NCBI RefSeq assembly: GCF_003665155.1
Contig: NZ_RCFQ01000032.1
Coordinates: forward strand, 1-34,686
Reading direction: 5' to 3'
DNA from: Mariprofundus sp. EBB-1
Lineage (GTDB): Bacteria > Pseudomonadota > Zetaproteobacteria > Mariprofundales > Mariprofundaceae
Length of the DNA stretch: 34,686 nucleotides
Of this stretch, positions 4,603 to 29,197 are shown piece by piece. A program made the position numbers and the translations under genes. The stretch's first letter is position 1. Every line of letters starts with the position of its first letter. The notes under the pieces were generated by a model. It was not told the DNA's origin and ran no database searches. It saw only the letters and a list, made by a program, of their open reading frames with translations.

Positions 4603-4628
4603 AAGTCAATCATATCATGCTGAAGCCT

Positions 4629-4741: not shown

Positions 4742-4759
4742 ACAATTCGGCTACATTAG
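4722..4759 (+). other. attL, left attachment junction of the island
   Basis: The kinase-derived half is 4722-4739, the core is AA at 4740-4741, and the island half is 4742-4759, ending in TACATTAG. The island half is an imperfect inverted repeat of the island half at attR, at identical distance from the core (see attR). Core position is inferred from the only bases common to both junctions. Confidence 0.8.
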
Positions 4760-4810
4760 AGAGCTTGCCTGCCGATAGATAAGTAGGCTTGCCAACAAGG
4801 AGCCTATGAT

Positions 4811-8668: not shown

Positions 8669-10351
8669 TTATCTGATTAACTCCTGAATTAGTGTTTGTA
8701 ATCTGGCTGGATCAACCGGCTTAGTGATATAAGACGAAACACCAAGTGCAAGCAGTTGATCCTGAATGGATTGTCCCTGTTTATCTGCTGATATGGGAAC
8801 ATGGCCTACTGCTGAGGCAACGATAACAGGTATATTTTTGAGATTGTCATTCATTTTTATCTTTTTAATAAGTTCAAGCCCATCCATTTGATCCATTTGA
8901 ATGTCTGTAATTATCAATGCAGGCTTGGTCTTTGACATGGCATTGAGTGCTTCAATGCCATGCTCAGCCTCAATAATATCGACATCCACGATGGTTTGGA
9001 TGTTTTTCTTGATAATAGAGCGTTGCACCTCTTGATCATCAACCAGAAGGATACTGTTGACTATCTCGGGTAATGTAATGCTGAAAATAGTGCCCTTGTT
9101 TTCAACAGACTGAACCTCAATCGTGCCGTGATGGGCTTCAATAATATCAAAACAATAGGGTAATCCGAGTCCTGTTCCCGCTTCGCTAGAGGTGCCTAAT
9201 GAGGTTGTTTTAACCTTGTCATCGAAGATGTGGTTGATATAGCCGGACTCCATGCCAACACCTGTGTCTTCGACATAAATCACCCGGTAATTTTCAGAGC
9301 TGGAATAAATGCTAACAACACCTCCCTCTTCAGTGAATTTGATCGCATTAGAGATTAGATTAGACAGTGCCTCTGCAAGCAAGCCTGCATCGGCAAAGAT
9401 CAAAGCCTGCGGTGAGAGTTTATTGATCAGAGTGATCTCTTTTTTATCGGCCTTAAATGCAAAGCTGTCACAGACCTGTGATGCCAGCTCAGCAAGATTG
9501 ATCAGCCTTTTACTGATCTCTAACTGTCCACTCTTTAGTATACTGATATCAAGTAGTTTTTCGGTGAGTAGCAGTAGCCCTTTGGTGGTCTTTTCTGTTG
9601 TCGAAATAAGCTCATTTCGCTGCTCGGAGGTGAACGTGTATTGACTCTCAGGTGCCAGCATTTTCAGGCAGTTGTGAACCCCCATCAGTGGTGATCTGAT
9701 ATCGTGCGAGACCAGTGCAACAAATTTATCTCTTAAAAGGGTGGCATCTTCGGCCTGCCCTTTGGCTGATTGCAGATCAAATTGTAACTGATAAGTATGT
9801 TTGAGCATTTTACTGGTTGCTATGGCAACGCCTACCACACCCACATAAAAAATAAAGAATAGTGCTGCAATAATCAAATCATCCACATGGAAAAAAACTA
9901 AGGCTCCGATGACCTGCAGAATAATGGGAATCACCAGCGTGAGATAAATAGGAAGAATGGCGGAGAGATTCATGGCTGCAGCAGAAATGCCCAGAATGGG
10001 CAGCAGGATAATAAACGAGTAAATATTCCACTCACTCGGCAAAAACCAGGCCAGTGTGCCCCACAAGATGCCATTGCATAAAATAGCAATAAACAGATGC
10101 TTCTTTAAACGCTGTAAATTTTTCCGATCTAAATCTTTGGCTGAATAACTGCGGCAAATAAGAAAGCGGTATAAAATCGTAGTGTGAATGGCTGCCAGCC
10201 AGAGTAGTAACAGTTCATGTGAATATGCAGGCCACAATCCGGTGACTACGATAAGCTGGGCAATGCTTATTGAGATATATGCTATTCTGGCATGCTCAAG
10301 AATATTTAACATCTGAGCTTGCAGCATTCTGGTTTCTACTGGCTGTAGCAC
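8669..10351 (-). CDS. Membrane hybrid sensor histidine kinase with C-terminal receiver
   Basis: This 560-aa inner-membrane kinase starts at GTG 10351, with GAGG about 9 nt upstream. About six hydrophobic helices (residues about 22-180) form the sensor module and there is no large periplasmic domain. HisKA follows, with VSHDIRSPL and phospho-His216. The ATPase domain shows NLISNAIKF, DTGVGM and GTGLGLP. A receiver (about 434-560) has LLVDDQ, LIITDIQMDQMDG and the ITKPVD lysine. It is convergent with the response regulator at 7971 (38-bp gap) and divergent from the regulator at 10656. I infer that these form one island-encoded signalling pathway controlling polysaccharide genes. The signal is unknown. 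No frameshift or missing catalytic residue is seen. Confidence 0.93.
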   Translation of the reverse strand: MLQPVETRMLQAQMLNILEHARIAYISISIAQLIVVTGLWPAYSHELLLLWLAAIHTTILYRFLICRSYSAKDLDRKNLQRLKKHLFIAILCNGILWGTLAWFLPSEWNIYSFIILLPILGISAAAMNLSAILPIYLTLVIPIILQVIGALVFFHVDDLIIAALFFIFYVGVVGVAIATSKMLKHTYQLQFDLQSAKGQAEDATLLRDKFVALVSHDIRSPLMGVHNCLKMLAPESQYTFTSEQRNELISTTEKTTKGLLLLTEKLLDISILKSGQLEISKRLINLAELASQVCDSFAFKADKKEITLINKLSPQALIFADAGLLAEALSNLISNAIKFTEEGGVVSIYSSSENYRVIYVEDTGVGMESGYINHIFDDKVKTTSLGTSSEAGTGLGLPYCFDIIEAHHGTIEVQSVENKGTIFSITLPEIVNSILLVDDQEVQRSIIKKNIQTIVDVDIIEAEHGIEALNAMSKTKPALIITDIQMDQMDGLELIKKIKMNDNLKNIPVIVASAVGHVPISADKQGQSIQDQLLALGVSSYITKPVDPARLQTLIQELIR

Positions 10352-10553: not shown

Positions 10554-10571
10554 ACACCCTTTTCGCGGTAT
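10554..10571 (+). promoter_or_regulatory. Island operator copy 1 (inverted ACACC/GGTAT, CTTTTCGC centre)
   Basis: ACACC, then CTTTTCGC, then GGTAT. One of four near-identical 18-bp sites in the island. It overlaps the expected -35 position relative to the TATAAT at 10584, the geometry of an activator site. It lies 84 bp before the regulator gene at 10656, suggesting autoregulation. Confidence 0.75.
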
Positions 10572-10583
10572 ATACGTGTTTAG

Positions 10584-10589
10584 TATAAT
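10584..10589 (+). promoter_or_regulatory. Candidate -10 box TATAAT for the regulator gene at 10656
   Basis: A consensus -10 hexamer with no good -35 hexamer 17 bp upstream. The operator copy 1 occupies that place. Promoter use is inferred. Confidence 0.5.
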
Positions 10590-10655
10590 CATATCTGATT
10601 CCCGTATCTGAACTTATATAATCCGATTATATATCGGTTACCTGTTGAGGGATAA

Positions 10656-11330
10656 ATGGAAAAAAACTGCTTTATGATTTTTGGGTTTGAATCGATTTCG
10701 CGCAAATCATTGGAACAACGTATTTTACGCATCCATGAAATTGAAGATGTCGTTGTTGTTGCAAACATAAGACAGGCAGGTGTTCTTTTAAAAGAGCATC
10801 GTATTGATGTGCTTATCATTATGCCAGAATGTATAAATTATTTTAATATAATACAGCAAGCAAAGACATGCAGTCCTAAGATCAAAATTATGGTGTTGTC
10901 TTCAGCTATGCAGGCAGAGGATATTGTAAATATTATCCGGTTGGGAATCAGTGCTTTCCTTTCATTGGAAGATGCTTTAGATAATATCCGTACTCACCTA
11001 GATGCGATGTTGTGCGGTGATTTCCCTATCAGCCCATCAATTGCAAAATATGCTTTAACAACAGAACGAAGAGCTTCTCTTGAAACCACCAGGGAGCCAT
11101 CGGTGTTGAGCTTGCGGGAGCAGGATGTACTAGAACTGATGGCTATTGGGCATAGCCGAAACGATATTGCCAAATCACTCCAGTTAAGTCCCCACACGGT
11201 AACGACGCACATTAAACATCTCTATAAAAAGCTGGGTGTCCACAGTCGCACCGAAGCCGTGTTTGTTGCACAACAAGAAAAAATTCTTTGCCTCGATCAT
11301 GTAACTATAAACTCAGACAATATTGCATAA
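10656..11330 (+). CDS. LuxR-type transcription regulator with degenerate receiver
   Basis: A 224-aa regulator with GAGG 5 nt before the ATG. The C-terminal half (about 148-212) is a typical LuxR HTH (LSLREQDVLELMAIGHSRNDI, then LSPHTVTTHIKHLYKKL). The N-terminal half has the receiver fold pattern but lacks its chemistry. The acidic pair is replaced near FGFES, the phospho-acceptor position in DVLIIMPE is Met56, and the conserved lysine position in AFLSLED is not Lys. It is therefore unlikely to be controlled by phosphorylation. Degenerate receivers of this type in biofilm regulators such as VpsT and CsgD respond to other inputs, but I do not see the VpsT c-di-GMP motif. Operator copy 1 lies before it and copy 2 begins 10 bp after its stop, before the WcaJ-like gene. 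Confidence 0.9.
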   Translation: MEKNCFMIFGFESISRKSLEQRILRIHEIEDVVVVANIRQAGVLLKEHRIDVLIIMPECINYFNIIQQAKTCSPKIKIMVLSSAMQAEDIVNIIRLGISAFLSLEDALDNIRTHLDAMLCGDFPISPSIAKYALTTERRASLETTREPSVLSLREQDVLELMAIGHSRNDIAKSLQLSPHTVTTHIKHLYKKLGVHSRTEAVFVAQQEKILCLDHVTINSDNIA

Positions 11331-11339
11331 TCGTCCTCC

Positions 11340-11357
11340 ATACCCTTTTCGTGGTAT
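11340..11357 (+). promoter_or_regulatory. Island operator copy 2 (ATACC-CTTTTCGT-GGTAT)
   Basis: A perfect inverted repeat ATACC/GGTAT around the CTTTTCGT centre. It is followed by an extended -10 candidate (TGCTAAAAT, 11359-11367). It lies 64 bp before the sugar transferase gene. Confidence 0.8.
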
Positions 11358-11420
11358 ATGCTAAAATGCTGTTCACATATCTAATTCGCATATGCAAATC
11401 ATCATAATGAGTATTATTCA

Positions 11421-12824
11421 GTGAGCTCTTACTCAAAGGGTTACATACATCGTTTTCACACTTGGCTTTCTGTATTTCAGAAGGGGATGGATACCATTAT
11501 GGTGTTTGCGACCTTAATGGTGAGTTGTGTTCTGTATGACTTACCTTTTTCATCTTTTTATCAGGTTACAGCCATTCTGGCTGCTTTGCTTACGCTGTTA
11601 TTTATGCACATGGTTGGAGTATACCAGCCTCGCCGAATTGCCTTTGTATGGAATGAAGCTCATTTGATATTATTGGCGTGGGGATTGGTGATCGGAAGTT
11701 TACTGACTATTGCCTGGGCAACTCAAAACACAAATAATCTCTCCCAATCTGCGATATCCGCTTATTTTGTTGCGACACCCCTGATACTGATTCTTACCCA
11801 CATTATGGGGCAAATTCTATTGCGAATGATCAGAAAGAAAGGTTTAAATCAAAAGAAGGTTGCTATTGTTGGTAGCGGCCCTCTTGCTATTGGGCTGGCC
11901 GAAACCATTCAGGAGCTGGAGTGGTCAGGCATGCAAATAATAGGCTTTTTTGACGACAATGAAAATTCGTCTTCCCAATCGAAGCAGAATATAACCATGC
12001 TAGGGAAAATCGATGATATCTTTCACATGGTCGGCAAGGAGGAAATAGACACTATCTACATCGCTCTTCCTATGCATGCTGAAAAGTCGATATTGAAAAT
12101 ATATTCTACCCTGCAAAATACGACGGTTTCCATTTTTTTAATTCCGGATCTATTTTCCTTTCATTTGATGGGAGCTCGCCAGTGTTTCGTTGGCAGTATG
12201 CCTGCATTTCAATTGTGTGAAACCCCCTTACTCGGAGTCTCTAGTGTGTTCAAGCGAATAGAAGATATTTTGATTAGTAGTATCGCGTTATTGCTGATGC
12301 TGCCGCTCATGAGTCTGATTGCTCTTGTCATTCAAATAACTTCACCCGGGCCAGTGTTTTTTAAACAGCACCGCTATGGCTTCCAGGGCAAAAAAATAAG
12401 AGTTTACAAATTTCGAAGCATGAGTGTCTGCGAGGATGGCTATCATATTTCGCTGGCCGAAAAAGACGATTCAAGAGTCACTCCTTTCGGCGCTTTTTTG
12501 CGTAGAACATCATTGGATGAGCTGCCGCAGCTATGGAATGTATTACAGGGCAATATGAGCATTGTTGGGCCGCGTCCTCTTGCTGTCATGGTTAATGAAG
12601 AATATAGGCAACAGATACAGGGTTATATGTGGCGGCATAAGATAAAGCCAGGCATTACAGGGCTGGCTCAGATAAGCGGGTGGAGAGGGGGAGATACTCT
12701 TCACCGTATGGGAAAACGGGTAGAGTGTGATCTGGAGTATATTCGTAACTGGTCAATTCGGCTGGATATGAAGATTTTGTTCAGGACGGTGCATTATCTA
12801 CTCACCAGTAAGGATGCTTATTAG
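11421..12824 (+). CDS. Undecaprenyl-phosphate sugar phosphotransferase, WcaJ-like
   Basis: This membrane enzyme starts repeat-unit assembly by moving a hexose-1-phosphate, probably glucose, from a UDP-sugar to undecaprenyl phosphate. The 467 aa match the polyprenyl glycosylphosphotransferase family. They comprise four N-terminal membrane helices (about 20-140), a nucleotide-fold domain ([17 protein letters not shown], about 145-255), one more membrane helix (about 285-308), and the catalytic bacterial sugar transferase domain. That domain contains [46 protein letters not shown] and [14 protein letters not shown]. The start is a GTG at 11421 with a poor Shine-Dalgarno, so the exact start is uncertain. 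The gene is transcribed alone between two operator copies. Confidence 0.93.
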
Positions 12825-12866
12825 TTGCTGCAATCTATGTCGATTGATATTCCTCCATCGCAAAGA

Positions 12867-12884
12867 GTACCCTTTTCACGGTAT
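12867..12884 (+). promoter_or_regulatory. Island operator copy 3 (GTACC-CTTTTCAC-GGTAT)
   Basis: The same 18-bp layout with small changes in the left arm and centre. It lies 45 bp upstream of the first gene of the main polysaccharide operon. Confidence 0.75.
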
Positions 12885-12929
12885 GCCATGTTAACCATTC
12901 CTTTCCTAGACTAGCGCTGATTTAAAATT

Positions 12930-13721
12930 ATGAGGAGATTATTTGTTTTGAAAAACAATATACGTTTACTGTGTTGCATTAGCCTGTTGTGTGTGCTGTT
13001 ACCATCAACCGCTTCTGCGGCTAAGTTGGAGTTTTTTGGAGATAAACCTGTGATTGGCCCAGGTTCTTCTTTAGGCACGCCTATTGCCTACGGCGCGAGT
13101 TGGGGGCAATACTTTGTCGGTATCGGGCTTACCGATAAGAGACGCAAGCAGTCTTCAGCGGATGGTTCTGCTGTGTTTGGTTTTGGCCTTGGTGACCCGG
13201 AAAAGTATATAGGCCTGGAAACCGATGTGTCTATTATTAGTTTAACTTCGCGCAATGGTGATAGAGCTGGAGACAGTGGTTCTGTCTCCCTCAAACTACA
13301 CCGCTGGTTACCCTACCACATGGGCATTGCTGTTGGGGTGGAAAATGCCGCAACATGGGGCATTGCCAAACGAGCCGGCGTGAAAACTAATGGCTTTGCT
13401 GTCATTACTAAGATATTGCCACTGAATAGCTCTTATTCGAAGTTTCTCACCGTGTCTGCTGGTGTTGGTAATGGCCGTTTTGGGCCGATCCCACTCACCC
13501 CCAATGCACTGACACAAAAAAAGATAGGTATCTTTGGTAGCATGGGTTTTCAGTTTCACCCAAGTACTGCGCTTGTGAGCAGTTGGACAGGTAGAGATTT
13601 AAATCTTGGTTTTTCGTTTGTGCCCTTATCCACCATCCCCATGACAATCAATGTAGGTCGAGTGAATGTATTGCATCGGGAATCTCTATCAGCCTGGGTT
13701 ATTTCAGTCGGTTTCTTATAA
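12930..13721 (+). CDS. Secreted outer-membrane beta-barrel-like protein
   Basis: The function is unknown. The 263-aa product has a signal peptide (hydrophobic stretch to about residue 30, TASAA cleavage). A Gly/Ser-rich body of alternating hydrophobic strands follows, ending in SAWVISVGFL, which resembles an outer-membrane barrel C-terminus. It is first in the operon and probably helps secretion or surface anchoring of the polymer. The start is odd. The ATG at 12930 has no ribosome-binding site upstream, and the best Shine-Dalgarno (GAGGAG, 12931-12936) lies inside the first codons. That would place initiation at TTG 12948 (six residues shorter), leaving the signal peptide intact. Confidence 0.75.
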   Translation: MRRLFVLKNNIRLLCCISLLCVLLPSTASAAKLEFFGDKPVIGPGSSLGTPIAYGASWGQYFVGIGLTDKRRKQSSADGSAVFGFGLGDPEKYIGLETDVSIISLTSRNGDRAGDSGSVSLKLHRWLPYHMGIAVGVENAATWGIAKRAGVKTNGFAVITKILPLNSSYSKFLTVSAGVGNGRFGPIPLTPNALTQKKIGIFGSMGFQFHPSTALVSSWTGRDLNLGFSFVPLSTIPMTINVGRVNVLHRESLSAWVISVGFL

Positions 13722-13740
13722 CAAGCATCAACAGGAGAAG

Positions 13741-14019
13741 ATGATGAAAACAATCGTTTTATTTATTTTATTTATGGTCTGTGCGCCACTGGCATACGCT
13801 GGCGCATTGCCGGTAGGTGGTGTTGGGCTTGGCTCTGGTTTTGTTGGCGGTGGCTTTACGCCTATGCCTGCTGCACCTGCTGCGTTATTCAACGGCGGTG
13901 ATTCCAGCGGTGGTGATTCCAGCGGTGGTGATTCCAGCGGTGGTGATTCCAACGGTGGTGATTCCAACGGCGGTGACTCCAGCGGAGGCGATTCCAACGG
14001 CGGTGGGGATGATCGTTAA
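13741..14019 (+). CDS. Small secreted protein with GGDSS pentapeptide repeats
   Basis: I do not recognise a family. The 92-aa product starts at ATG 13741 (a second ATG follows at 13744) after AGGAG. A signal peptide (FILFMVCAPLAYA) is followed by a short Gly/Pro-rich segment. Seven tandem pentapeptides GGDS(S/N) then run to a GGGDDR end. The mature protein would be small, flexible, acidic and exported. Asp/Ser-rich repeats could bind cations or stay disordered near the polysaccharide. This is inference. It is 20 bp after the barrel-like gene and 17 bp before the phosphatase gene, so it is in the operon. Repeat number is likely to vary between strains. Confidence 0.75.
   Translation: MMKTIVLFILFMVCAPLAYAGALPVGGVGLGSGFVGGGFTPMPAAPAALFNGGDSSGGDSSGGDSSGGDSNGGDSNGGDSSGGDSNGGGDDR
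13894..13998 (+). repeat. Seven 15-bp tandem repeats coding GGDS(S/N)
   Basis: The repeat unit is GGTGGTGATTCCAGC with a few third-base and AGC/AAC changes. It is in phase with the reading frame, so slippage would change copy number without a frameshift. Confidence 0.9.
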
Positions 14020-14036
14020 GCGATGAAAGCTTCGGA

Positions 14037-14498
14037 GTGAGATTGTTTCAGGATATTCTTTTTGTATGTGTCGGCAATATTTGTAGAAGCCCAATGGCCG
14101 AAGCTCTATTGAAACAGCACCTTGCTTCTGCGCATGTTCATATCAACTCCGCCGGCATCGCGGCGCTTGTCGGGCAAGCTGTTTACCCGGAAATCCAGGG
14201 TATAATGGATCGTGATGGCATCGCAACCGGGCAGCATCAAGCCCGGCAACTAACAGCGCAGATGGTGAGGCAGGCTGATCTTATTCTGGTCATGCAGTCC
14301 AGCCAACAGTCTTATATCCATAACATGGAATCTACGGCGCGAGGCAAAGTGCATCTGCTTGGTAAATGGCAGGAGATAGAGATTCCAGACCCTTATCAAA
14401 AGTCAGAAGAATATGTTGAATATGTATACAAACTGATCAACACATCAGTTAAAGATTGGAGTAGCAGATTATGGCTACAAGAGGGAAAAGATAAATGA
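14037..14498 (+). CDS. wzb: Low-molecular-weight protein tyrosine phosphatase, Wzb-like
   Basis: This cytoplasmic phosphatase would remove phosphate from the Wzc tyrosine cluster and so keep polymer assembly cycling. The 153-aa protein has the P-loop CVGNICRS (Cys11, Arg17; CX5R) at its N-terminus and the general-acid loop IPDPY near residue 117. Its length is normal for the family. The start is taken as GTG 14037, close behind GGAG. The position just before wza and wzc is the standard arrangement in Wzy-dependent capsule and exopolysaccharide loci. The stop overlaps the wza start by 4 bp (ATGA), implying translational coupling. Confidence 0.93.
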   Translation: MRLFQDILFVCVGNICRSPMAEALLKQHLASAHVHINSAGIAALVGQAVYPEIQGIMDRDGIATGQHQARQLTAQMVRQADLILVMQSSQQSYIHNMESTARGKVHLLGKWQEIEIPDPYQKSEEYVEYVYKLINTSVKDWSSRLWLQEGKDK

Positions 14499-15655
14499 AT
14501 CGCATTGTTATATTGCTATTAACCATGTTGTTATTCAATGCCTGCGCTATGGCTCCGGGTATGCGAATTGATGAATCTAGATTGCATGCAAGTGCTGAAC
14601 CTGAAACACAGAAGCTCGATATTAAACTATTGCCTATCACTGGGGCTGCTCTGCAACAGATCCGACAGGCGCAGCAAGCACAGGAGTCAGATCATGCCTT
14701 TCAGCCTAGAGCTTTACAGGCTGAAAGTGGTGCTTACCAATACCATGTCATGCCCCGCGATGTCTTACAGATTACGGTTTGGGATCACCCTGAATTAACC
14801 TTGCCCGAGGGGCAGTTTCGCTCTGCTGCAGAGAGTGGATCTATTGTGCATAGCGATGGCAGTATCTTTTACCCCTACGTTGGTAATATTGCTGTTTCGG
14901 GCAAGAGCATTGAACAAATCAGGGGAGAATTAACACACAAGCTTTCCAAGTTCATGCCCAAACCCCAAGTTGATGTACGTGTATCTTCGTATCGCAGCCA
15001 GCATGTATATGTGACCGGTGAAGTCACCAAACCTGGCGCTTATGCAATTAGTGATATGCCAATGCACGTGTTGGATGCGTTGAACTTCGCAGGTGGAGCA
15101 CGAACACGGACACTGAGCAACCAAATCAATGAAGCTGATCTGGAGCGTGTCCAACTGACCCGTTCAGGAAAACGATACAATATTGATATGCACAAGTTGC
15201 TTAGCGATGGTGATTTGTTGCACAATTATTTGTTGCAAGATGGTGATTTACTGCATGTGCCGGATAATATGAACAATAAGGTATTTGTGCTTGGAGAGGT
15301 GAAAGCAGCGGGATCGTTCCTGATACACAATGGTTTCATGAGTCTGGCCGATGCGTTGGCGAACAGTGGCGGCTTTGATATGAGCAGTGCCAACACCGGC
15401 CGAATTTATGTGATTCGCAGTGGTTTACAATTTCATCATCATACTCGAAACGCAGCCGACCATGCAGGAAAACCAGTCATTTACCGGCTTAATGGAAGCT
15501 CTCCCGATGCCCTTATTCTCGCCGATCAATTTCAATTGCAGGCGCGAGATGTGGTGTTTGTATCTACCGCTGATGTCGTCGCCTGGGGGCGTGTGCTGGG
15601 TCAATTATCCTCAACCATTCAGGCTATTGGTATTGGCCGGGCGCTGACACGATGA
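14495..15655 (+). CDS. wza: Polysaccharide export outer-membrane lipoprotein, Wza-like
   Basis: This forms the outer-membrane export channel. It is a 386-aa lipoprotein with signal peptide and lipobox LFNAC (Cys17). The poly-export domain begins near residue 85 (YHVMPRDVLQITVWDHPELT), followed by two SLBB-like domains (around VYVTGEVTKPGAY and VFVLGEVKAAGSF). The C-terminus (about 355-386) would be the amphipathic helix that crosses the outer membrane in Wza octamers. Length and domain order are normal. It overlaps the phosphatase gene by 4 bp. Its stop overlaps the start of a 59-codon ORF in the same ATGA fashion. Confidence 0.94.
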   Translation: MNRIVILLLTMLLFNACAMAPGMRIDESRLHASAEPETQKLDIKLLPITGAALQQIRQAQQAQESDHAFQPRALQAESGAYQYHVMPRDVLQITVWDHPELTLPEGQFRSAAESGSIVHSDGSIFYPYVGNIAVSGKSIEQIRGELTHKLSKFMPKPQVDVRVSSYRSQHVYVTGEVTKPGAYAISDMPMHVLDALNFAGGARTRTLSNQINEADLERVQLTRSGKRYNIDMHKLLSDGDLLHNYLLQDGDLLHVPDNMNNKVFVLGEVKAAGSFLIHNGFMSLADALANSGGFDMSSANTGRIYVIRSGLQFHHHTRNAADHAGKPVIYRLNGSSPDALILADQFQLQARDVVFVSTADVVAWGRVLGQLSSTIQAIGIGRALTR

Positions 15656-15831
15656 ATCAATTTGTTGAATATGGAAATTTATGCAATAACGAGCATGAAG
15701 AATTGGCAGATAAATGGGGCGTTTCGAGGACTCTTGGCGGTTTAAAGGCGATACTGAAAAAACAAAAGGACAAAATAATAATGAATCTGAAATGCGTTGA
15801 AGTCTCAGGCATGGATGTGTTCAATGCCTGA
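15652..15831 (+). CDS. Small coupled ORF between wza and wzc, 59 aa
   Basis: The frame starts at ATG 15652, overlapping the wza stop by 4 bp (ATGA). It ends at TGA 15829-15831, overlapping the likely wzc start (ATG 15824) by 8 bp. It fills the only gap in an otherwise gapless operon, which supports its being translated. The product is charged, with a helical Lys-rich middle (LGGLKAILKKQKDK) and no membrane segment or signal peptide. No family is recognised. If real, it may be a small partner of Wzc, or simply a leader that carries ribosomes to wzc. It could instead be an untranslated spacer. Confidence 0.5.
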   Translation: MNQFVEYGNLCNNEHEELADKWGVSRTLGGLKAILKKQKDKIIMNLKCVEVSGMDVFNA

Positions 15832-18043
15832 TTCTCAGTCCTTAGCTCTTAATTCTCAAGCATCCTCAACACCTTTTGATATAAAAGACGAAATCGATCT
15901 AGCTGAATGTATCGGTATCATTACTGATAACTATCGTAAGATTATTGCTATTACTGCTCTATTCTTTATGGCTGCCACTTCCTACGCATTTATGTCAACG
16001 CCTATTTATGAGGTCGATGCTTTGCTGCAGGTCGAGGATAAAAATTCAGGTTTGGGGGATATGGTAGATTTGGGCGCATTTTTCGCTGGTGATGCACCCG
16101 TAAATGCAGAAATTGAGATTCTCCGTTCTCGTTTGGTGCTTGGTAGGGTGGTGAATGACCTAAGTTTAAATATTTCAGCATCTCCGCATTACTTTCCATT
16201 TATTGGCGAATGGATGGCACGAACTTATGAGCAAAGCAATGTGCCTGCCAGTGTACCGCTTGGTTTGACATCTTTTGCATGGGGCGGTGAGGAAATTCAG
16301 TTGAATGAACTGGATGTACCTCCTGACTACGAGGGTAAAGAACTTACACTGGTTGCTGGTCAACGTAAGCATTACCGCTTGTTCGATGAGGATAACACCC
16401 TGCTTTTGGAGGGTGATGTTGGTCGCAAGGTGGAGGAGCATGGTATTTCGATTCGGGTAGGAGCACTGGAGGCTAGGCCAGGCGTTAGTTTTAATATTGT
16501 GAAGGAGAGCTGGTTGTACCAAGTACAGCAGTTGCAGGATTTTATTGATATTTCGGAAAAAGGGAAAAAAACGGGTATGTTACAGATAACCTTGGAAAAC
16601 CCCGACCCGTCCCTTGCTGTATCTATATTGAATGCACTGGCTAATATCTATTTAGATCAGAATGTTGGACGTAAATCAGAGGAAGCCAATAATGCGCTGG
16701 TTTTTTTAAAAAGGCAGTTGCCCATTATTAAAGAAGATTTGAGTGATGCTGAAACAAAAATGAATAATTACCGGGTAATGCGCGGCTCGCTAGATGTTGG
16801 GCTTGAAACTAAAACCGTATTAGACCAGCTCGTAGAAATAGAACGTCAAATTTCCGAAGTTCAATTACAAAAGACTGAGATGTATCAGCGCTTTACTGCG
16901 AGGCATCCGGTTATTCAGTCAATCAATGCAAAACTCGCTATTTTGAATCAGGGCAAGAAACAGCTTACTGACAAGGTTAATAAGTTACCTGCAACAGAGC
17001 AGGAAGTACTCAGGCTGATGCGAGATGTGAAAGTTCAAACAGAGTTATATACATTGCTTCTAAACAAAGTACAGGAGCTGAATGTAACCAAAGCTGCCAC
17101 TATTGGTAATGTACGTATTCTTGATTATGCAGTATTACCGGATGAACCAATCAAGCCTGTTAAGGCGCTAATTGTGGCGCTTGGGTTTGTAGTGGGCCTA
17201 TTTGTTAGCTTGATACTCGTTTTTGGTCGCAGGCTTATGCAAAAAGGCATAGAAACCCCTGAAATGGTCGAGCAGAAACTTGGTCTTTCTGTTTATGCTA
17301 CGGTGCCGCATTCCCTTACTCAACTAGAACTGTATGCTCAGATGCGAAAACATAAGGGCAAGAGAGGCTGCTTCCTGCTTGCCTCAGTGAATGAGTCGGA
17401 TTTAGCTATTGAGAGCTTGCGTAGCTTACGTACCAATTTGCATTTTGGTCTAATGGATGCAAAGAACAATATTATTATGATGTCAGGTTCAGCCCCCGAC
17501 GTAGGAAAATCATTTGTCTCATCTAATTTAGCACATGTGTTAAGCATGGCGAATAAGCGAGTGTTACTGATTGATGCAGACTTACGCAAAGGGCACTTGA
17601 ATGAGTATTTTGGGTTGGATAGAGAGAATGGATTATCCGAATGTATTCTGGGTGATTTGTCTCTCAAACAAGCCGTGAATCAAACTTCATATGAAAAATT
17701 AGATGTACTGACAACGGGTAAAATACCGCCAAGCCCATCTGAACTTCTAATGAGCGAACATTTCGAAACCATGCTGGCTGAAGCTTCAAAATTCTACGAT
17801 CTAGTGCTGATTGATACACCTCCAGTTCTAGCCGTTACCGATGCTGTAGTGATCGGTAAATTGGTAGGTACTGCGTTCCTGTTACTACGTGCTGGTCGAC
17901 ACCCAGTTCAAGAAATCCAACAGGCCGTCAGACGCTTTGAGCATGGTGGCGTTAAGCTTCAGGGTGCTATTTTTAATGACATCAAACGGACACGCTCAAG
18001 ATATGACTATGGTGGCTATCAATATAAGTATAAGGAAGAATGA
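15824..18043 (+). CDS. wzc: Tyrosine autokinase and chain-length regulator, Wzc-like
   Basis: This inner-membrane co-polymerase controls chain length and links Wzy synthesis to Wza export. It has an N-terminal Wzz domain, a membrane helix at about residues 40-60, and a long periplasmic coiled-coil region (about 255-420). A Pro-rich second membrane segment follows (PDEPIKPVKALIVALGFVVG, about 440-470). The cytoplasmic BY-kinase has Walker A SAPDVGKS (about 556), Walker A' LLIDADLRKG and Walker B LVLIDTPPV. The C-terminus has a tyrosine cluster (RYDYGGYQYKYKEE), the target of the Wzb phosphatase. The frame is open from TTG 15797. I prefer ATG 15824, coupled to the preceding small ORF, giving 739 aa. 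Its stop overlaps the flippase start by 4 bp. Confidence 0.95.
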   Translation: MPDSQSLALNSQASSTPFDIKDEIDLAECIGIITDNYRKIIAITALFFMAATSYAFMSTPIYEVDALLQVEDKNSGLGDMVDLGAFFAGDAPVNAEIEILRSRLVLGRVVNDLSLNISASPHYFPFIGEWMARTYEQSNVPASVPLGLTSFAWGGEEIQLNELDVPPDYEGKELTLVAGQRKHYRLFDEDNTLLLEGDVGRKVEEHGISIRVGALEARPGVSFNIVKESWLYQVQQLQDFIDISEKGKKTGMLQITLENPDPSLAVSILNALANIYLDQNVGRKSEEANNALVFLKRQLPIIKEDLSDAETKMNNYRVMRGSLDVGLETKTVLDQLVEIERQISEVQLQKTEMYQRFTARHPVIQSINAKLAILNQGKKQLTDKVNKLPATEQEVLRLMRDVKVQTELYTLLLNKVQELNVTKAATIGNVRILDYAVLPDEPIKPVKALIVALGFVVGLFVSLILVFGRRLMQKGIETPEMVEQKLGLSVYATVPHSLTQLELYAQMRKHKGKRGCFLLASVNESDLAIESLRSLRTNLHFGLMDAKNNIIMMSGSAPDVGKSFVSSNLAHVLSMANKRVLLIDADLRKGHLNEYFGLDRENGLSECILGDLSLKQAVNQTSYEKLDVLTTGKIPPSPSELLMSEHFETMLAEASKFYDLVLIDTPPVLAVTDAVVIGKLVGTAFLLLRAGRHPVQEIQQAVRRFEHGGVKLQGAIFNDIKRTRSRYDYGGYQYKYKEE

Positions 18044-19419
18044 GTTTGAAAAAAACTCAAGGCTCTTTAGTCAACAAACATTTTCTATCTGGAAGTATAT
18101 GGGCTCTTTCTGGAAAGATATTCACCACCATTGCCCAATTGCTCATCAATGCTTTGCTTGCACATTTATTAGCACCTGAAGAATTGGGAGTCTATTTTCT
18201 TATATTTAGTGTTGTGAATTTAGCAGCACTATTGATTCAACTTGGCATGCCGCAGGTGGCTGTGAGATATATTTCGGCATCATTGGCAAAACAGACCCAA
18301 ATTAATCAGCTTATAAAATATTTATTTTCATTCTGTTTTATCAGTGCATGTATCGTTTCTTTGATATTTATCTTTTTTGCAGGTGATTATCTTGCCGTAA
18401 ATACGTTTCATTCTGAAACGATGCTTGATGTCATGCAACTTGCTGTCTTGTGGGCTGTGGTTCTGGCATTTCAAGCGCTATCAGCTGAAATATTCAGAGG
18501 GTTTAATGATATTCGATTTGCCACTGTTTTTGGAGGGTTAATTAACAGCATTATTATTTCTATTTTGTTTGCATCTCTTTGGGTAGACCAGGGACATACT
18601 GATGTGTCGCAGGTGATTATATTATCAATTGCCAGTGGCTTTGGCTGTGTGATTACTGCTTGTTTTTTAATAGGGCGTAAGGCGAATAGTATTAAGGATT
18701 TGACAGACCATGATAACGATTGGAAAACGCTGTGGGTTGTCGGTTGGCCGATTTTACTGACGAATATAATATTCTTTGCGCTTCTACAATCAGATATTTG
18801 GATACTGGGAATTTATGCTAGTAAAGAAGAAGTCGGTATTTATGCTTCAATTGCGCGTTTGGCGATGATTATTTCAGTATCATTGATGATTATTAATGCG
18901 GTTGTGTCGCCATTAATAGCTGAGTTTCATGCCAAAGAAAAACTTCATGAGTTAGAACTTACTTTAAGGCCTATTACATCGCTGGCATTTCTGTGTTCTT
19001 TTTTTGGAATGAGCTTTTTCATTGTATTTGGCGCTGATACTTTGGCTTTGTTGTTTGGTGAGAAATTCAGCGAGGGGTGGATGATCCTTGTTTTATTGTC
19101 AGTGGCGAACCTGGTGAAAGTGTTTGGCGGTTCGTGTGGAGTAAACCTTTTGATGACCGGACATCAAATGGCATTGTTAATGATTACTGTGATTTCAAGT
19201 ATTATGACAATAGGACTTAGTCTAATTTTAGTTGAGACTTATAGAGGCGAAGGTATTGCCTCAGCCTTGATCGTTGGTTTTTTTATACAAAACTTGATAA
19301 GTGTGCTATATACAAAAAAAGTTAATGGCATCTGGACTCATGCAGATATTGGTTTCATCATCAACGTGCTAAGTGGAAAGTGGCATTTAAGCGCAATGGG
19401 AATGAATAAATTCAAATGA
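18040..19419 (+). CDS. Wzx-type polysaccharide flippase
   Basis: A 459-aa polytopic membrane protein of the MATE/Wzx (MOP) superfamily, with about 12-14 hydrophobic segments. The N-terminus is characteristic (SGSIWALSGKIFTTIAQLLI, then LLAPEELGVYFLIFSVVNLA). It would turn the undecaprenyl-linked repeat unit to the periplasmic face for polymerisation. Overlap with wzc (ATGA) and with the following sulfotransferase gene (ATGA) places it in the operon. The coding sequence is much richer in AT codons than wza or wzb, as is common for Wzx and Wzy genes. I am sure of the class but not of the substrate. Confidence 0.9.
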   Translation: MSLKKTQGSLVNKHFLSGSIWALSGKIFTTIAQLLINALLAHLLAPEELGVYFLIFSVVNLAALLIQLGMPQVAVRYISASLAKQTQINQLIKYLFSFCFISACIVSLIFIFFAGDYLAVNTFHSETMLDVMQLAVLWAVVLAFQALSAEIFRGFNDIRFATVFGGLINSIIISILFASLWVDQGHTDVSQVIILSIASGFGCVITACFLIGRKANSIKDLTDHDNDWKTLWVVGWPILLTNIIFFALLQSDIWILGIYASKEEVGIYASIARLAMIISVSLMIINAVVSPLIAEFHAKEKLHELELTLRPITSLAFLCSFFGMSFFIVFGADTLALLFGEKFSEGWMILVLLSVANLVKVFGGSCGVNLLMTGHQMALLMITVISSIMTIGLSLILVETYRGEGIASALIVGFFIQNLISVLYTKKVNGIWTHADIGFIINVLSGKWHLSAMGMNKFK

Positions 19420-20120
19420 TTATATCCCATAAGTATAAATTTATTTTTATAAAAACCACCAAAACAGCAGGCACAAGTATTGAAGTTTATTTATCCTCCT
19501 TATGTGATAAAGATGATGTTGTAACGCCTATATTTCCTCATGTTGAACCACATATATCTAGAAATTATAAAGGGCTATATAACCCTCTGAATGAAATTTT
19601 GGATGCAAAAGGGAAGGGACTAGCCCGAAGCCTTAGGGACTTTTCTATTAGGCATAAATATTATAATCACATGCCAGCTTACAGAGTACGTGCTCGTGTG
19701 CGAGTAGATGTATGGGATAGATACTTTAAATTTTGCGTGGAGCGTAATCCATGGGATAGAACGATGTCGCACTTTTCCATGCTTCAACAACGAAAAAATA
19801 AGAACTTAACGCTCAAACAGTATTTCGACAGGGAAATGTACGCAACGAATTATCCAATTTATTCGGATTGGACAACACATAAAGTGATTGTGGATAAGGT
19901 TCTTCGCTATGAGTCTTTGAATCAAGAGTTGGGAGGTGTATTCAAGTATTTAGGCGTTCCATTTTCTGGCGAGCTTAATGTGCATGCGAAACTTGGGGAT
20001 AAGTCAGCTCTAATAAATCGGGATGTATTTAGTGAAGAGCAAATTCAGATTATTGGGAGCACATGTGCTAATGAAATTGATCTGCTCGGTTATACAAAAC
20101 AGTCCGGAGCTATAGATTAA
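19416..20120 (+). CDS. Sulfotransferase family protein (first of three)
   Basis: This likely transfers sulfate from PAPS to a sugar hydroxyl. The 234-aa protein has a 5'-phosphosulfate loop near the N-terminus (FIKTTKTAGTSIEVYL, residues about 10-25) and a 3'-phosphate-binding segment (FKFCVERNPWDRTMSHF, about 107-123). These are the two hallmarks of the P-loop sulfotransferase family. There is no signal peptide, so it would act in the cytoplasm on lipid-linked sugar. It overlaps the flippase gene by 4 bp, and the second sulfotransferase starts 2 bp after it. Acceptor specificity is unknown. PAPS synthesis genes are not in the window. Confidence 0.85.
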   Translation: MIISHKYKFIFIKTTKTAGTSIEVYLSSLCDKDDVVTPIFPHVEPHISRNYKGLYNPLNEILDAKGKGLARSLRDFSIRHKYYNHMPAYRVRARVRVDVWDRYFKFCVERNPWDRTMSHFSMLQQRKNKNLTLKQYFDREMYATNYPIYSDWTTHKVIVDKVLRYESLNQELGGVFKYLGVPFSGELNVHAKLGDKSALINRDVFSEEQIQIIGSTCANEIDLLGYTKQSGAID

Positions 20121-20122
20121 TC

Positions 20123-21094
20123 ATGGAACCCCTTTTTATCTTTTCTCTCCCTCGTTCCGGGTCTACTTTACTGCAAAGGGTGTTAGGAGTAACACCTGAA
20201 GTTTCTACAGTATCAGAGCCGTGGGTACTTCTTCCGTTATATTATTCTTTAAAGAAAGATGGCGTTTACGCAGAATATGGACATGATTGTCTTGTTGACG
20301 CAATAGAAGATGTATGTCAGGTACTTCCGAATAAAGCTCAGGATTATCATGAAGCTGTTGCTGAATTTGCGTTGTCTCTCTATCGGAAACTATCCGACCC
20401 AAATGCGAAATATTTTTTAGATAAAACCCCACGCTATCATCTCATTGTGGAGGAAATTATCGCTACCTTTCCAAATGCCAAAATCATATTCCTTTGGAGA
20501 AACCCCCTTGCGATTGTGTCATCTGTAATCAATACATGGGGAAAGAAGGGGCAGTGGAATCTTCATGCATCAAAGATTGATTTGTTTGATGGGTTGGAAA
20601 ATTTAACGCGTTCATATGTAAAGCATGAGAATAGATCTTATGCGGTTCGTTATGAAGATTTAGTTTGTGGCTCAAGAGATTCTTGGGAGAGCCTTTTTCA
20701 CTATCTGGGGGTTCCTTATAAGGAAGAATATATTGAAAAATTTACTGCTTTAAAACTGCAAGGAAGGCTTGGTGATCCAACTGGAGTAAAGAATTACTCA
20801 ACGCTATCTAATGAAACAACTGAACAATGGAAAAAAGAAATGACGAACCCGATTCGTAAGTTATGGTGCAGGCGGTATCTTGATTTTATTGGTCGTGACA
20901 GGTTGTTGGTGATGGGCTTTGATATTGACCACCTAAAGGAAGAACTTCAATCTGTAAGGTCTGATATGAAATATATGTTTTCTGATTGTGTTGGGCTTGT
21001 TTATGGCATGATATATTCTTATATGGAGCCTGAAATATTCAAGAAAAAGTATAACGAACTATGTCAGAAAAGAAAAATTTATGGCCATCATTAG
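20123..21094 (+). CDS. Sulfotransferase family protein (second of three)
   Basis: A 323-aa P-loop sulfotransferase of the larger Sulfotransfer_3 type. Its first residues carry the phosphosulfate loop FSLPRSGSTLLQRVLG (about 6-21). The 3'-phosphate site is IIFLWRNPLAIVSSVI (about 120-135). A later RYEDLV block (near 175) is also typical. It is cytoplasmic by sequence. It follows the first sulfotransferase by 2 bp and overlaps the polymerase gene by 14 bp, so it is clearly part of the polysaccharide operon. It is not similar enough to its neighbour to be a recent duplicate, which suggests separate acceptor positions. This last point is inference. Confidence 0.87.
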   Translation: MEPLFIFSLPRSGSTLLQRVLGVTPEVSTVSEPWVLLPLYYSLKKDGVYAEYGHDCLVDAIEDVCQVLPNKAQDYHEAVAEFALSLYRKLSDPNAKYFLDKTPRYHLIVEEIIATFPNAKIIFLWRNPLAIVSSVINTWGKKGQWNLHASKIDLFDGLENLTRSYVKHENRSYAVRYEDLVCGSRDSWESLFHYLGVPYKEEYIEKFTALKLQGRLGDPTGVKNYSTLSNETTEQWKKEMTNPIRKLWCRRYLDFIGRDRLLVMGFDIDHLKEELQSVRSDMKYMFSDCVGLVYGMIYSYMEPEIFKKKYNELCQKRKIYGHH

Positions 21095-22340
21095 AAATAT
21101 TATTGTCGGAATAAATGATGCCCCTTTAACGACAATGGTCAGCGTACTATGGCCGGTGAGCATTGTTTGTATGCATTTTGTGATTGTGGAACCTATTATC
21201 CTCCCTGTTTTAACGTTTCCGTTGATAGCAATATGGCTGATATTTAATGCAAAGTTCGACATATATGTATTACTGTGTGCGTTTACTTGCATAGTTTATG
21301 CTGCTCTGTTGGGGGGCTATTCAAATGATGCTATAGAATTTATAAAATCGTTTGTGCTCTTTTTTGTATTTATTAGTATGCTTTTGTTGGTATCAAAAAC
21401 AAAAGCAATTAACCCTATGTTTTTTGAAGTTTCTGTAAAAATATTCATATGGCTTGCAGTTTTGGTCGCACTTCTAACGCTGACTCAATCAATTGCTTTA
21501 AATGTATTTACTAATTATTCGTTTATGAATCCGTTTGGCGATTTTGGTCGCGTTGGACCTGGCGGGCAAGTTTATACTCCTCATCCTGAGGCTCTATTGA
21601 AAAAATCAAATGCAGTTTTTTCGGAGCCTTCAGTCTGTGGTTGGTTTTTGGTATTGGCTGCTGCGATTGTAATTGCATGGAATAGACACAGGAAATCTTT
21701 TCATGCTGCAATACCATTTGTTCTATTGTTAGGGGCAGTGCTGACAGGAGCATTATCTGGTTTATTCAACGCAATATTATTACTGTTATGCTGGGCTTAT
21801 CTAACGCCAAATGGATTCAAAGGTGTTTTGACTAAAACTCTATTGTATTTTCTGGTTATTAGCACTGTTGTAGGGTTGCTGTCATTTGAACCCATTGCAC
21901 ATCGTTTTGGTGATATTGATCTCGAAGGTTCATCAGTCTATTATAGAGTTGTTGCTCCACTCATGCTGTTAAGAGACTCTTTGCCTGAATATCCCTTCGG
22001 CCATGCGCTTGGACAGACCGATTACATTGCTTCTAAGGCTTACATGGTTAATTGGGAGGGGGGAAAGCAGTTTGGTATCCATAATAGTTTTTTTCTTATC
22101 AGTTATTACTTTGGCATCGTAGGCGTAATTATATCTTGTTTATGTATGTACATTGTCTTCAGGTCTATTCTTAAGAAAAAATGCATATCTCTAATATTGT
22201 TAGCTTTGATGTTAGTGTTATTAGAAACAGGTGGGTTATGGAGCCCTGAGATTAGTTTATTGCTGGTCTATTGCACCTTGTTAATGAAGTACTTTAATCA
22301 GTTAGATCAACCAACCTGTTTTCAGCAGGAAAAGCCATGA
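21081..22340 (+). CDS. Wzy-like polysaccharide polymerase
   Basis: A 419-aa membrane protein with about ten hydrophobic helices and little soluble sequence. It has the O-antigen ligase/polymerase pattern: a longer loop with FGRVGPGG and SEPSVCGWFLVLAAAIVIAW in the middle, and a second with FGIHNSFFLISYYFGIVGV. It would join repeat units on the periplasmic side. It overlaps the preceding gene by 14 bp and the following glycosyltransferase by 4 bp. Wzy proteins diverge widely, so the call rests on topology, these loops and context between flippase and transferase genes. Confidence 0.85.
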   Translation: MAIIRNIIVGINDAPLTTMVSVLWPVSIVCMHFVIVEPIILPVLTFPLIAIWLIFNAKFDIYVLLCAFTCIVYAALLGGYSNDAIEFIKSFVLFFVFISMLLLVSKTKAINPMFFEVSVKIFIWLAVLVALLTLTQSIALNVFTNYSFMNPFGDFGRVGPGGQVYTPHPEALLKKSNAVFSEPSVCGWFLVLAAAIVIAWNRHRKSFHAAIPFVLLLGAVLTGALSGLFNAILLLLCWAYLTPNGFKGVLTKTLLYFLVISTVVGLLSFEPIAHRFGDIDLEGSSVYYRVVAPLMLLRDSLPEYPFGHALGQTDYIASKAYMVNWEGGKQFGIHNSFFLISYYFGIVGVIISCLCMYIVFRSILKKKCISLILLALMLVLLETGGLWSPEISLLLVYCTLLMKYFNQLDQPTCFQQEKP

Positions 22341-23104
22341 AGGAAGTGTTTTTTTCAATCATTACAGTTGTATATAATGATAAAGAAGGTTTTTGTAATA
22401 CAAAAAAAAATATTAGTGAGCAAATCTATAAAGATTTTGAATGGATAATCATTGATGGAGCATCAACTGATGGCACTGCTGAGGTAGTTGCAGAGCTCAT
22501 TCAGGACCCTTCATTGAAGTGGACTTCTGAGCAGGATAATGGTATATATGATGCTATGAATAAAGGCCTCAGTATTGCCTCTGGTGAGTTCGTGGTTTTT
22601 ATGAATGCGGGGGATGTTTTTAGTTCGAAGGAGACACTTCAAATTGTTGCTGAGAAAATATCGAAGCAGGAAAATGCTATCAGTATTCTTTTTGGAGGAG
22701 CAAATTTAGTCTTTTTGAATGGTAAATCAAAATATAGACGTCCTAGAAAGTCATGTAATACTATATGGCATGGACTTCCTGCTACACATCAAGCAACCTA
22801 TTATAAAACTGATTTAATCAAGAACGACCCTTATGACTTAAAATATGAAATGTGTGGGGATTACTACTTGACTGCTTCAGTAGTAATTCAGGAGGTTTCA
22901 GAGGCATATATTGATGAACCATTGGTTGATTTTAGGATAGGTGATTTTTCATTTAAAAATCCCATATTGGCCTTAACGGAAGCGTACTCCATACAGAAGA
23001 ATTTGTTACATAGTTCCCTGCCTTTTAGAGTCGCTAGCTTTAGTCGACGCCTAGTTGCCATCTGTGTCGTATTTTTTTTATGTCAAATAAGTAGATTTCG
23101 TTAA
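22337..23104 (+). CDS. Family 2 glycosyltransferase
   Basis: A 255-aa cytoplasmic GT-A transferase. The N-terminus FFSIITVVYNDKEGF leads into IIDGASTDGTAEVV (nucleotide-sugar binding). DNGIYDAMNKG and FMNAGD (about residues 94-99) stand at the metal-binding position. A C-terminal hydrophobic stretch may bring it to the membrane. It resembles WcaA/WcaE-type transferases and would add one sugar to the lipid-linked unit. It is the last gene of the first operon. Past its end is a 73-bp gap without an obvious terminator, and the acetyltransferase gene converges on it. Confidence 0.9.
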   Translation: MKEVFFSIITVVYNDKEGFCNTKKNISEQIYKDFEWIIIDGASTDGTAEVVAELIQDPSLKWTSEQDNGIYDAMNKGLSIASGEFVVFMNAGDVFSSKETLQIVAEKISKQENAISILFGGANLVFLNGKSKYRRPRKSCNTIWHGLPATHQATYYKTDLIKNDPYDLKYEMCGDYYLTASVVIQEVSEAYIDEPLVDFRIGDFSFKNPILALTEAYSIQKNLLHSSLPFRVASFSRRLVAICVVFFLCQISRFR

Positions 23105-23177
23105 TATGGCACATATTCTGGCAGCCTTTTTGGAAGGTAATGCTATAGTGATCACAAATGTACATTACATGGTAATC

Positions 23178-23726
23178 TTATCTTGGCTTCACTGCCTTTG
23201 CAGGAGAACCAACACAAATCATCCCTTCAGGCATATCAACAAACACGCTGCTTCGCGCCCCAATCAATGCACCTCTTCCAATCGTCACACCTGGTGCAAC
23301 AAACACATCCGTGGCAATCCAGACCTGATCTTCAATGGTTATTTTGTTATCAATCATATCGAATGATGATTTAGTATAATCATGGGTTGCCGCACACAAA
23401 TATGAATTCTGGCTAATCACCACATCATCCCCAATGTCTATTTCCCCCAAGCTATAAAGTTCGGCATGATCACCAATCCGAACGTGGTTGCCAATGCTTA
23501 CCTTCCATGGATAAGTCACACGCACGGAAGGGCGAACAATCACCCCTTCCCCAATCCTTGCGCCAAATAAGCGTAATAAAAACATCCGCCAGCCATACGT
23601 AAACTGCGGTGACATAGCGAACAAAGTTGATTGCACCAGCCACCAAAGCTGAACATACCAGCCAGACCGACCTCGGAAACCTTGAGGAAGTCGAAACTGT
23701 TCTAATTTTTGATAATCTTTAGACAT
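23178..23726 (-). CDS. WcaF-like hexapeptide-repeat acetyltransferase
   Basis: A left-handed beta-helix O-acetyltransferase that probably decorates the polysaccharide from acetyl-CoA. The start is taken at ATG 23726 (MSKDYQKLEQF), the family's usual N-terminus. The frame is open to a TTG at 23762. The 182-aa protein has the FRGRSGWYVQLWWLVQ block of WcaF proteins, then hexapeptide repeats (IGNHVRIGDHAEL, DDVVISQNSYLC, APGVTIGRGALIGARSSV) and a His in THDY that is likely catalytic. It is transcribed against the operon. Operator copy 4 lies in the upstream intergenic region, so it might share control with the 23989 operon. Confidence 0.9.
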   Translation of the reverse strand: MSKDYQKLEQFRLPQGFRGRSGWYVQLWWLVQSTLFAMSPQFTYGWRMFLLRLFGARIGEGVIVRPSVRVTYPWKVSIGNHVRIGDHAELYSLGEIDIGDDVVISQNSYLCAATHDYTKSSFDMIDNKITIEDQVWIATDVFVAPGVTIGRGALIGARSSVFVDMPEGMICVGSPAKAVKPR

Positions 23727-23918
23727 TAGGTAATTCTTTTGAAGGTATATTGTGATAACCAATCATATCTCACCGTTCGATTATAGCTTTCAACACAAGC
23801 ATTTTATTGGACTCCCGCATTTTAGTAGACGTTCTATTGTTTGTAGATAGTGGCTGCCTTTATTTAGCGCAATTACATTTGTTCAGCCCAATAATTGGCA
23901 GTCGCGTTTGAGTTGGGA

Positions 23919-23936
23919 ATACCTTATTCGTGGTAT
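23919..23936 (+). promoter_or_regulatory. Island operator copy 4 (ATACC-TTATTCGT-GGTAT)
   Basis: A perfect ATACC/GGTAT inverted repeat with a centre slightly changed from the other copies. It lies 52 bp before the gene at 23989, in the divergent gap (23763-23988) also upstream of the acetyltransferase. The rest of that gap shows no repeat or small gene. Confidence 0.75.
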
Positions 23937-23988
23937 ATGAACGGTATCTGATGAGCTTTAAGATTCCTGATTAAAAAGGAGGGGATTT

Positions 23989-24651
23989 ATGCCAAGGAAC
24001 CGTTTATTTAATAGGAAGAAGTTAATTTCTAAAGGAAGGAGTGATGCAATTAGTGGTGAGATAAAAGAACCGAAGGTTCGCTTAGAGTTGCTTAAGCTAA
24101 AACTTAACCGAAAATGGAATAAATCATGGAATCTATATTTTGTGTTAACGGTAGAAGACCCGCTTAATTCAAGCCTTATGTACATTGCTGAATATCCTGA
24201 TGCTAACGCTCCTTATCCTGATTTTGATTTAACTAAAAGATCGAACAACACAATTCCTTTTGCTCCATCCGGTTCTGAGGCAGATGGTCTCCAAGTGTTT
24301 GAGAGCCGAATGCCAAAAGATAGACAAATTTCTGTTAGGTTGAATTTAGTCCGTTCAAAAGGAAAAACTCGAAAAAGAAGCGCTGTAATTGAGAGAGGAG
24401 CAATATTTATGGATGATATTGCTGAGGTATTGAAGTTAGAGAAAATCCCAAATTTTTGGGTGAAAGCGGGTGTTCTTTCTAATAAAGCGGTGGGAAAAGT
24501 TAGTCATATGATTGCAGAGACTAAAGATAAGGACCTTGGTTTCGTAAGTCTAGATGAACGATTTGAGGAAAATTGTCCGAAGATACTTTGTAGGGATAAT
24601 CAACTAATAAGCGGAGAAGCCACCTTATATTGGCGCTGGATAATTGAGTGA
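23989..24651 (+). CDS. Unknown protein encoded before the patatin-like lipase, 220 aa
   Basis: I do not recognise this protein. A very strong ribosome-binding site (AAGGAGGGG) lies 4 nt before the ATG. The product is basic at its N-terminus (RNRLFNRKKLISKGR) and has no signal peptide or membrane helix. The middle (about 45-130) looks like alternating beta strands (WNLYFVLTVEDPLNSSLMYI, RQISVRLNLVRSKG), as in a beta-sandwich. It is first in the second island operon, directly behind operator copy 4. The lipase gene follows after 100 bp, suggesting that they work together. Nothing points to a catalytic site. Possible roles are lipid- or polymer-binding partner, but this is guesswork. Confidence 0.7.
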   Translation: MPRNRLFNRKKLISKGRSDAISGEIKEPKVRLELLKLKLNRKWNKSWNLYFVLTVEDPLNSSLMYIAEYPDANAPYPDFDLTKRSNNTIPFAPSGSEADGLQVFESRMPKDRQISVRLNLVRSKGKTRKRSAVIERGAIFMDDIAEVLKLEKIPNFWVKAGVLSNKAVGKVSHMIAETKDKDLGFVSLDERFEENCPKILCRDNQLISGEATLYWRWIIE

Positions 24652-24750
24652 GGCTGACTGTTAAATTTTATGACAGAAGATTAAAACTACCTCACACGAA
24701 TGACGGCTATTTTGTAATAAACCTGTGTAAAGTAGATAGGGAGTGATTTT

Positions 24751-27932: not shown

Positions 27933-27937
27933 AGTAG

Positions 27938-29194: not shown

Positions 29195-29197
29195 GCT

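Follow-up and report, generated by a model that had tools for sequence, protein, structure and literature searches.

An 18-bp element that occurs four times in a polysaccharide gene island of Mariprofundus sp. EBB-1 is probably the operator of a NarL/FixJ-family dimer, used as a class II activator site through which two response regulators, RR1 and RR2, would exert feed-forward control of the island (probability of about 0.72). The window, that is, the whole stretch of DNA analyzed, comprises 34,686 nucleotides of contig NZ_RCFQ01000032.1. We infer that the dimer sits next to RNA polymerase, with its center near −43.5, and that the promoters concerned possess a −10 element and lack a −35 element. 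The neighboring hybrid kinase would probably phosphorylate RR1, RR1 would turn on RR2 via copy 1, and RR1 together with RR2, as homodimers or a heterodimer, would activate the wcaJ-like gene (copy 2), the main EPS operon (copy 3), and the patatin operon (copy 4). The outcome would be a self-amplifying switch for one polysaccharide.

Four operator copies in the island

The four copies lie on the forward strand at 10554 to 10571 (ACACCCTTTTCGCGGTAT), preceding the RR2 gene; 11340 to 11357 (ATACCCTTTTCGTGGTAT), preceding the wcaJ-like gene; 12867 to 12884 (GTACCCTTTTCACGGTAT), preceding the main EPS operon; and 23919 to 23936 (ATACCTTATTCGTGGTAT), preceding the patatin operon. Their coordinates had been predicted correctly, each is on the strand of its downstream gene, and the predicted distances of 45 to 84 bp to the annotated starts were reproduced. 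With up to three mismatches allowed, the window holds exactly these four matches (shuffle mean, 0.04; no shuffle contained four), which bears out the original prediction that the flanks contain no copy. The predicted length of 18 bp also held, while the gapped way of writing the site, in which each arm is flanked by an additional base, gave zero matches. The element has the character of an operator, as had been proposed: its arms, ATACC and GGTAT, form an inverted repeat, and its center is conserved and directional. Similarity among the four sites spans only ∼18 to 21 bp (family D9), and their flanks are unrelated. Judged from their sequence, the four sites represent a genuine and clearly defined operator of a type already known (NarL/FixJ family, class II), with predicted binders.

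Distribution in the genome and the phylum

The remainder of the assembly (2,877,040 bases, or 2.88 Mb, in 63 contigs) was searched with a pattern that covers all four sites; the genome-wide counts come from such pattern searches, not from a matrix scan. There were no further matches beyond the island at zero or one mismatch in the 2.88 Mb. When two and three mismatches were included, 68 matches were found in all, versus 69 for a reversed-pattern control. Four of the two-mismatch sites were inspected; three are within long reading frames (on either strand) and one is within the end of a frame, and they do not look like promoter sites. Many copies in non-promoter positions had been named as the outcome that would refute the proposal, and the genome-wide search found weaker matches at the control level only. 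The original prediction had also called the regulon private. Within its own genome the operator is indeed restricted to the island, but a sister genus, g14, has the same operator before quite different genes.

In a sample of 398 genomes from the phylum, the operator pattern matches exactly four times in the genome of the window, five times in G073, and twice each in G070, G071, and G072, the last four being species of g14, another genus of the same family. Matches in the rest of this sample, including the other genera of the family, are scattered and close to the control level. No operator was found near the response regulator homologs of genera g4, g6, and g8 and of other g1 species, nor beside more distant RR1 homologs (46% identity or less). 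The operator thus has an unusually clear two-genus footprint, as far as the sequence searches go.

The four g14 species have RR1 orthologs at 50 to 51% identity, compared with 46% or less for the other homologs in the family, and in 4/4 species the operator directly follows the RR1 ortholog. It reads ATACCCTTTTTGCGGGAT in G073, ATCCCCCTTTTGCGGGAT in G071 and G072, and ATCCCCCTTTCGCGGGAT in G070, and the pattern for the three species G070 to G072 is ATCCCCCTTT[TC]GCGGGAT. The arms are altered on both sides (ATCCC/GGGAT versus ATACC/GGTAT), G073 being mixed, and the T-rich asymmetric center is retained. Every inspected g14 operator is oriented toward its downstream gene.

The operator after the RR1 ortholog is followed by intergenic DNA in which a stem is conserved (CCTAGC..GCTAGG; G072 has a paired change) and a terminator precedes secA. 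This stretch is a candidate small RNA of ∼90 to 110 nt (L051:8930-9062; L049:3372-3512; L050:4870-5001, minus strand; L053:6-148, minus strand). It had no match to an Rfam family, strong matches to a model of it are limited to g14, and it was not found in the genome of the window. Several GGA motifs occur in it, as in CsrA-binding RNAs. The second operator sites of G070 to G072 precede response-regulator-like genes, and those of G073 precede genes for large secreted SpvB/RHS-repeat proteins. The two SpvB/RHS-repeat genes of G073 are each behind an operator, and their upstream regions are very similar (paralogous). These proteins (L067:1092-7352 and L068:4332-10226) have weak TcdB matches in their middle regions and belong to a relative of iron oxidizers.

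Candidate regulators

The most likely binders of the operator are two LuxR/NarL-type regulators encoded in the window. RR1 (7971 to 8630, forward strand) is a NarL/FixJ-type response regulator that scores above the Pfam cut-offs for both Response_reg and GerE, and a receiver alignment indicated that its receiver is intact, with the phospho-acceptor Asp and the conserved Lys present. RR2 (10656 to 11330, forward strand) is a LuxR/NarL-type regulator whose GerE domain scores above the Pfam cut-off and whose receiver scores below it; in the receiver alignment, the receiver is degenerate, having lost both residues. Because the phospho-acceptor Asp and the Lys are missing, RR2 appears to be an atypical member of the NarL/FixJ (LuxR-type HTH) response regulators. 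Its closest solved structure is NarL. Between the two genes lies a hybrid histidine kinase gene (8669 to 10351, reverse strand) with Pfam HisKA, HATPase_c, and receiver domains. On the basis of gene adjacency, this kinase is the candidate partner of RR1; no counterpart was found at an E value of ≤1e−60 in the 73 other genomes of the family.

Phylogeny and the recognition helix point to different regulators. In a tree, path length places RR1 closest to the g14 regulators, but this grouping is unsupported, and the branch leading to RR2 is very long. RR2 and the four g14 regulators share the recognition helix HTVTTHIKH, which is absent from the other 26 of the 31 aligned rows, including RR1, whose helix is HTITSHTKN. 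Given this different helix, RR1 might bind another site. Phylogeny thus favors RR1 and the helix favors RR2; the operator may serve both. The only relative of RR2 among GTDB contigs was a weak match in Acidobacteriota, and no RR2 counterpart was found in g14, where its best match is the RR1-type gene.

It is possible, though doubtful, that RR2 alone binds the island operators independently of phosphorylation, much like VpsT or CsgD, and that RR1 controls only RR2 or something else. Besides the shared recognition helix, the position of RR2 inside the regulon and its degenerate receiver agree with this idea, but the g14 operator is adjoined only by an RR1-type regulator with an intact receiver, which is the very gene that RR2 matches best there.

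The asymmetric center of the operator is more than a plain homodimer requires and counts against the preferred reading. It is no sign of a heterodimer, because g14 has the asymmetric center without RR2. We consider it unlikely that a heterodimer of RR1 and the degenerate RR2 reads the directional center as a two-protein checkpoint and that, within one family, an ancestral operator was rewired, via an acquired, diverged regulator with a matching recognition helix, between two target sets: in one, a small RNA and large secreted proteins; in the other, a polysaccharide island gained horizontally.

Promoter geometry

Hexamers of the −10 type were scored at every distance from the site with weights based on E. 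coli promoters. A −10-like hexamer starts exactly 40 bp after the start of the site in 4/4 window sites: TCTGAT at 10594 to 10599 for copy 1, TCTAAT at 11380 to 11385 for copy 2, TAGACT at 12907 to 12912 for copy 3, and TAAGAT at 23959 to 23964 for copy 4, all on the forward strand and all predicted. Averaged over the four sites, the −10 score is 3.7 at offset 40, and the runner-up offset reaches −0.4 (P = 0.002 when all offsets are considered). When dinucleotide shuffles were used and a shift of one base was permitted, the four window sites by themselves fell short of significance across the full range of offsets (P = 0.096). Nine nonredundant g14 sites peak independently at 40 ± 1 bp (P = 0.001), and when all thirteen sites are pooled (four from the window and nine from g14), none of 2,000 shuffles reached the observed value. 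Some g14 sites, including the small RNA sites of G070 to G072, have poor −10 hexamers at this distance. An offset of ∼26, suspected by eye, is weak in the score profile.

The original prediction held that copy 1 replaces the −35 element of a TATAAT promoter. This was not supported: the TATAAT hexamer, at 10584, is at offset 30, which is not common to the four sites, and it was ruled out as their shared −10 element. No sigma70 promoters with −35 and −10 elements were found at the window sites, where no good −35 hexamer is present. Because the shared −10 hexamer starts at +40 from the site start, the center of the operator is near −43.5; with the hexamer placed at −12 to −7, the operator extends from −52 to −35 and its 3′ edge is at the −35 region. 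The features of a class II activator-dependent promoter, namely, a site beside or overlapping the −35 region, a poor −35 hexamer, and a fixed distance to the −10 element, are all found here, with offset 40 in 4/4 sites. Activation of the E. coli ogt1052 promoter needs no more than one NarL 7-2-7 site, located at −44.5 and 32 bp upstream of the −10 element (PMC9314961); the corresponding distance in the window is 31 bp. The placement of the operator would match that of a class II activator site, such as the one in the NarL-driven ogt promoter. The role of an activator, which the original prediction had suggested, is likely in view of the center near −43.5, the missing −35 element, and the fixed −10 spacing.

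The same geometry bears on whether the sites are instead repressor operators, with a regulator that keeps the promoters shut until it is released by a signal. A protein bound to the operator could indeed obstruct RNA polymerase, as the site extends to the −35 region. Against this, the window promoters are without a −35 element and would therefore have little basal activity to repress, class II activator sites are classically centered at approximately −43.5 (compare PMC9314961), and the −10 spacing is constant in both genera, a constraint that repression would not impose. We consider repression quite improbable.

Still less credible is that the motif is not an operator but the core promoter of an alternative sigma factor. 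Such a promoter would be directional, always point toward a gene, and have an asymmetric center, as the motif does, but both inverted-repeat arms have been altered (ATACC/GGTAT became ATCCC/GGGAT), a separate −10 hexamer follows at a fixed distance, and the element is too short for a −35/−10 pair. Finally, that the sites are promoter copies from a recent duplication within the island, without regulatory meaning, can be dismissed almost entirely: all four are in one island and two of the G073 sites are in paralogous upstream regions, but likeness confined to ∼18 to 21 bp amid unrelated flanks already contradicts it, yet the −10 spacing is kept, and the same element stands beside RR1 orthologs in another genus.

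Comparison with known regulatory systems

NarL heptamers have the consensus TACYYMT. The island operator can be read as two inverted heptamers with a 2-bp gap and TAC outer ends (TACCCTT-TT-CGTGGTA), the arrangement of a NarL-type 7-2-7 site. The inner bases depart from the consensus at position 6 in the left half and at positions 5 and 7 in the right half, and the g14 sites read TCCCC against the heptamer. Like the 7-2-7 site of E. coli ogt1052 (PMC9314961), the operator is a 16-bp inverted repeat with the core geometry TACC-N8-GGTA, it is associated with NarL/FixJ regulators, and its center is near −44 before a −10 element. It differs from NarL sites in the inner heptamer bases, the asymmetric center, and the ATCCC half-site variant of g14, and its targets in the island and in g14 are EPS and secreted-protein genes with no known link to nitrate. 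RR1 and RR2 are not NarL itself, as the two regulators score 97 and 78 bits against the NCBIfam NarL model, for which the cut-off is 250 bits.

In design, the proposed circuit is like the control of colanic acid genes by RcsB and RcsA, in which rcsA is autoregulated and RcsB also drives a small RNA (PMC5651002). The window likewise combines a response regulator (RR1), an auxiliary LuxR-type protein within the regulon (RR2), and a hybrid kinase. Its operator stands before the auxiliary regulator (copy 1) and before EPS genes of the wza-wzb-wzc/wcaJ type (copies 2 and 3), and the g14 operator seems to drive a small RNA, as RcsB does. Membership in the Rcs system itself was rejected on protein models: the best-scoring models for RR1 and RR2 are MadR and NarL, not RcsB or RcsA, RR2 scores 25.7 bits against the RcsB model (cut-off, 235), and RcsB is outside the best 25 models for RR1. 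The Rcs box is also unrelated in sequence to the island operator, and neither RcsD nor RcsF nor IgaA was noticed in the window.

BldM and WhiI of Streptomyces, in which a 16-bp palindrome serves one regulator and mixed half sites serve the heterodimer (PMC4125116), are likewise a pair of atypical LuxR-type regulators. They differ in the BldM consensus (TCACcCgnncGgGTGA) and in being orphan regulators of sporulation. VpsT and CsgD resemble RR2 in having a LuxR-type HTH behind a degenerate receiver and in controlling matrix production; both are among the matches of RR2, the match being partial, and the operator sequence differs. What is new here is the member and its targets; the principle is known from class II activation in the NarL/FixJ family.

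The island and its genes

Zetaproteobacteria make iron-laden polysaccharide structures. To our knowledge, little is known of how their polysaccharide genes are switched on, and the group has barely been studied. The defined operator, fixed promoter geometry, two candidate regulators, and kinase make this a directly testable polysaccharide cluster, and the different targets in g14 illustrate cleanly how a regulon can turn over while its operator is conserved. “Zetaproteobacteria sp. EBB1” is listed as a twisted-stalk former (Table 1 of PMC8250860). Compared by description only, the window proteins include no lookalike of the sfz stalk genes (PMC8250860), and the island would therefore be a second polysaccharide system beside the sfz stalk, separately controlled.

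The island has a G+C content of ∼41%, versus 45 to 46% in the flanks. Upstream of it, at 4165 to 6430, are an IS200-like transposase reading frame and a serine recombinase, consistent with horizontal gain of the island.

Copy 2 precedes a gene for a WcaJ-type undecaprenyl-phosphate glucose phosphotransferase (11421 to 12824, forward strand; above the cut-off of NCBIfam TIGR03023). A five-codon frame at 11407 to 11424 (ATG AGT ATT ATT CAG TGA) ends on the GTG start of this gene, making translational coupling possible.

The main EPS operon (12930 to 23104, forward strand) encodes a signal-peptide protein, a Wzb-like phosphatase, Wza-like and Wzc-like proteins, a flippase, sulfotransferase-like proteins, a WcaD-like polymerase, and a glycosyltransferase, some of these roles having been read from the sequence only. 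Its first start is probably the in-frame TTG at 12948 rather than the ATG at 12930, because the TTG is preceded by AGGAG and begins a clean signal peptide; the ATG overlaps an AGGAG. Seven 15-bp repeats at 13875 to 14020 encode the GGDSS/GGDSN tail of a small secreted protein beside the EPS genes.

The patatin-type operon (23989 to 31145, forward strand), whose extent is a prediction and whose gene roles past 27129 were assigned from the sequence, contains genes for a 220-amino-acid protein and a patatin-like protein (24751 to 27129, just under the Pfam cut-off) and methyltransferase-, glycosyltransferase-, sulfotransferase-, and galE-like genes. Repeats of 33 bp at 24798 to 25089 give the patatin-like protein an N-terminal region that is repetitive and highly charged.
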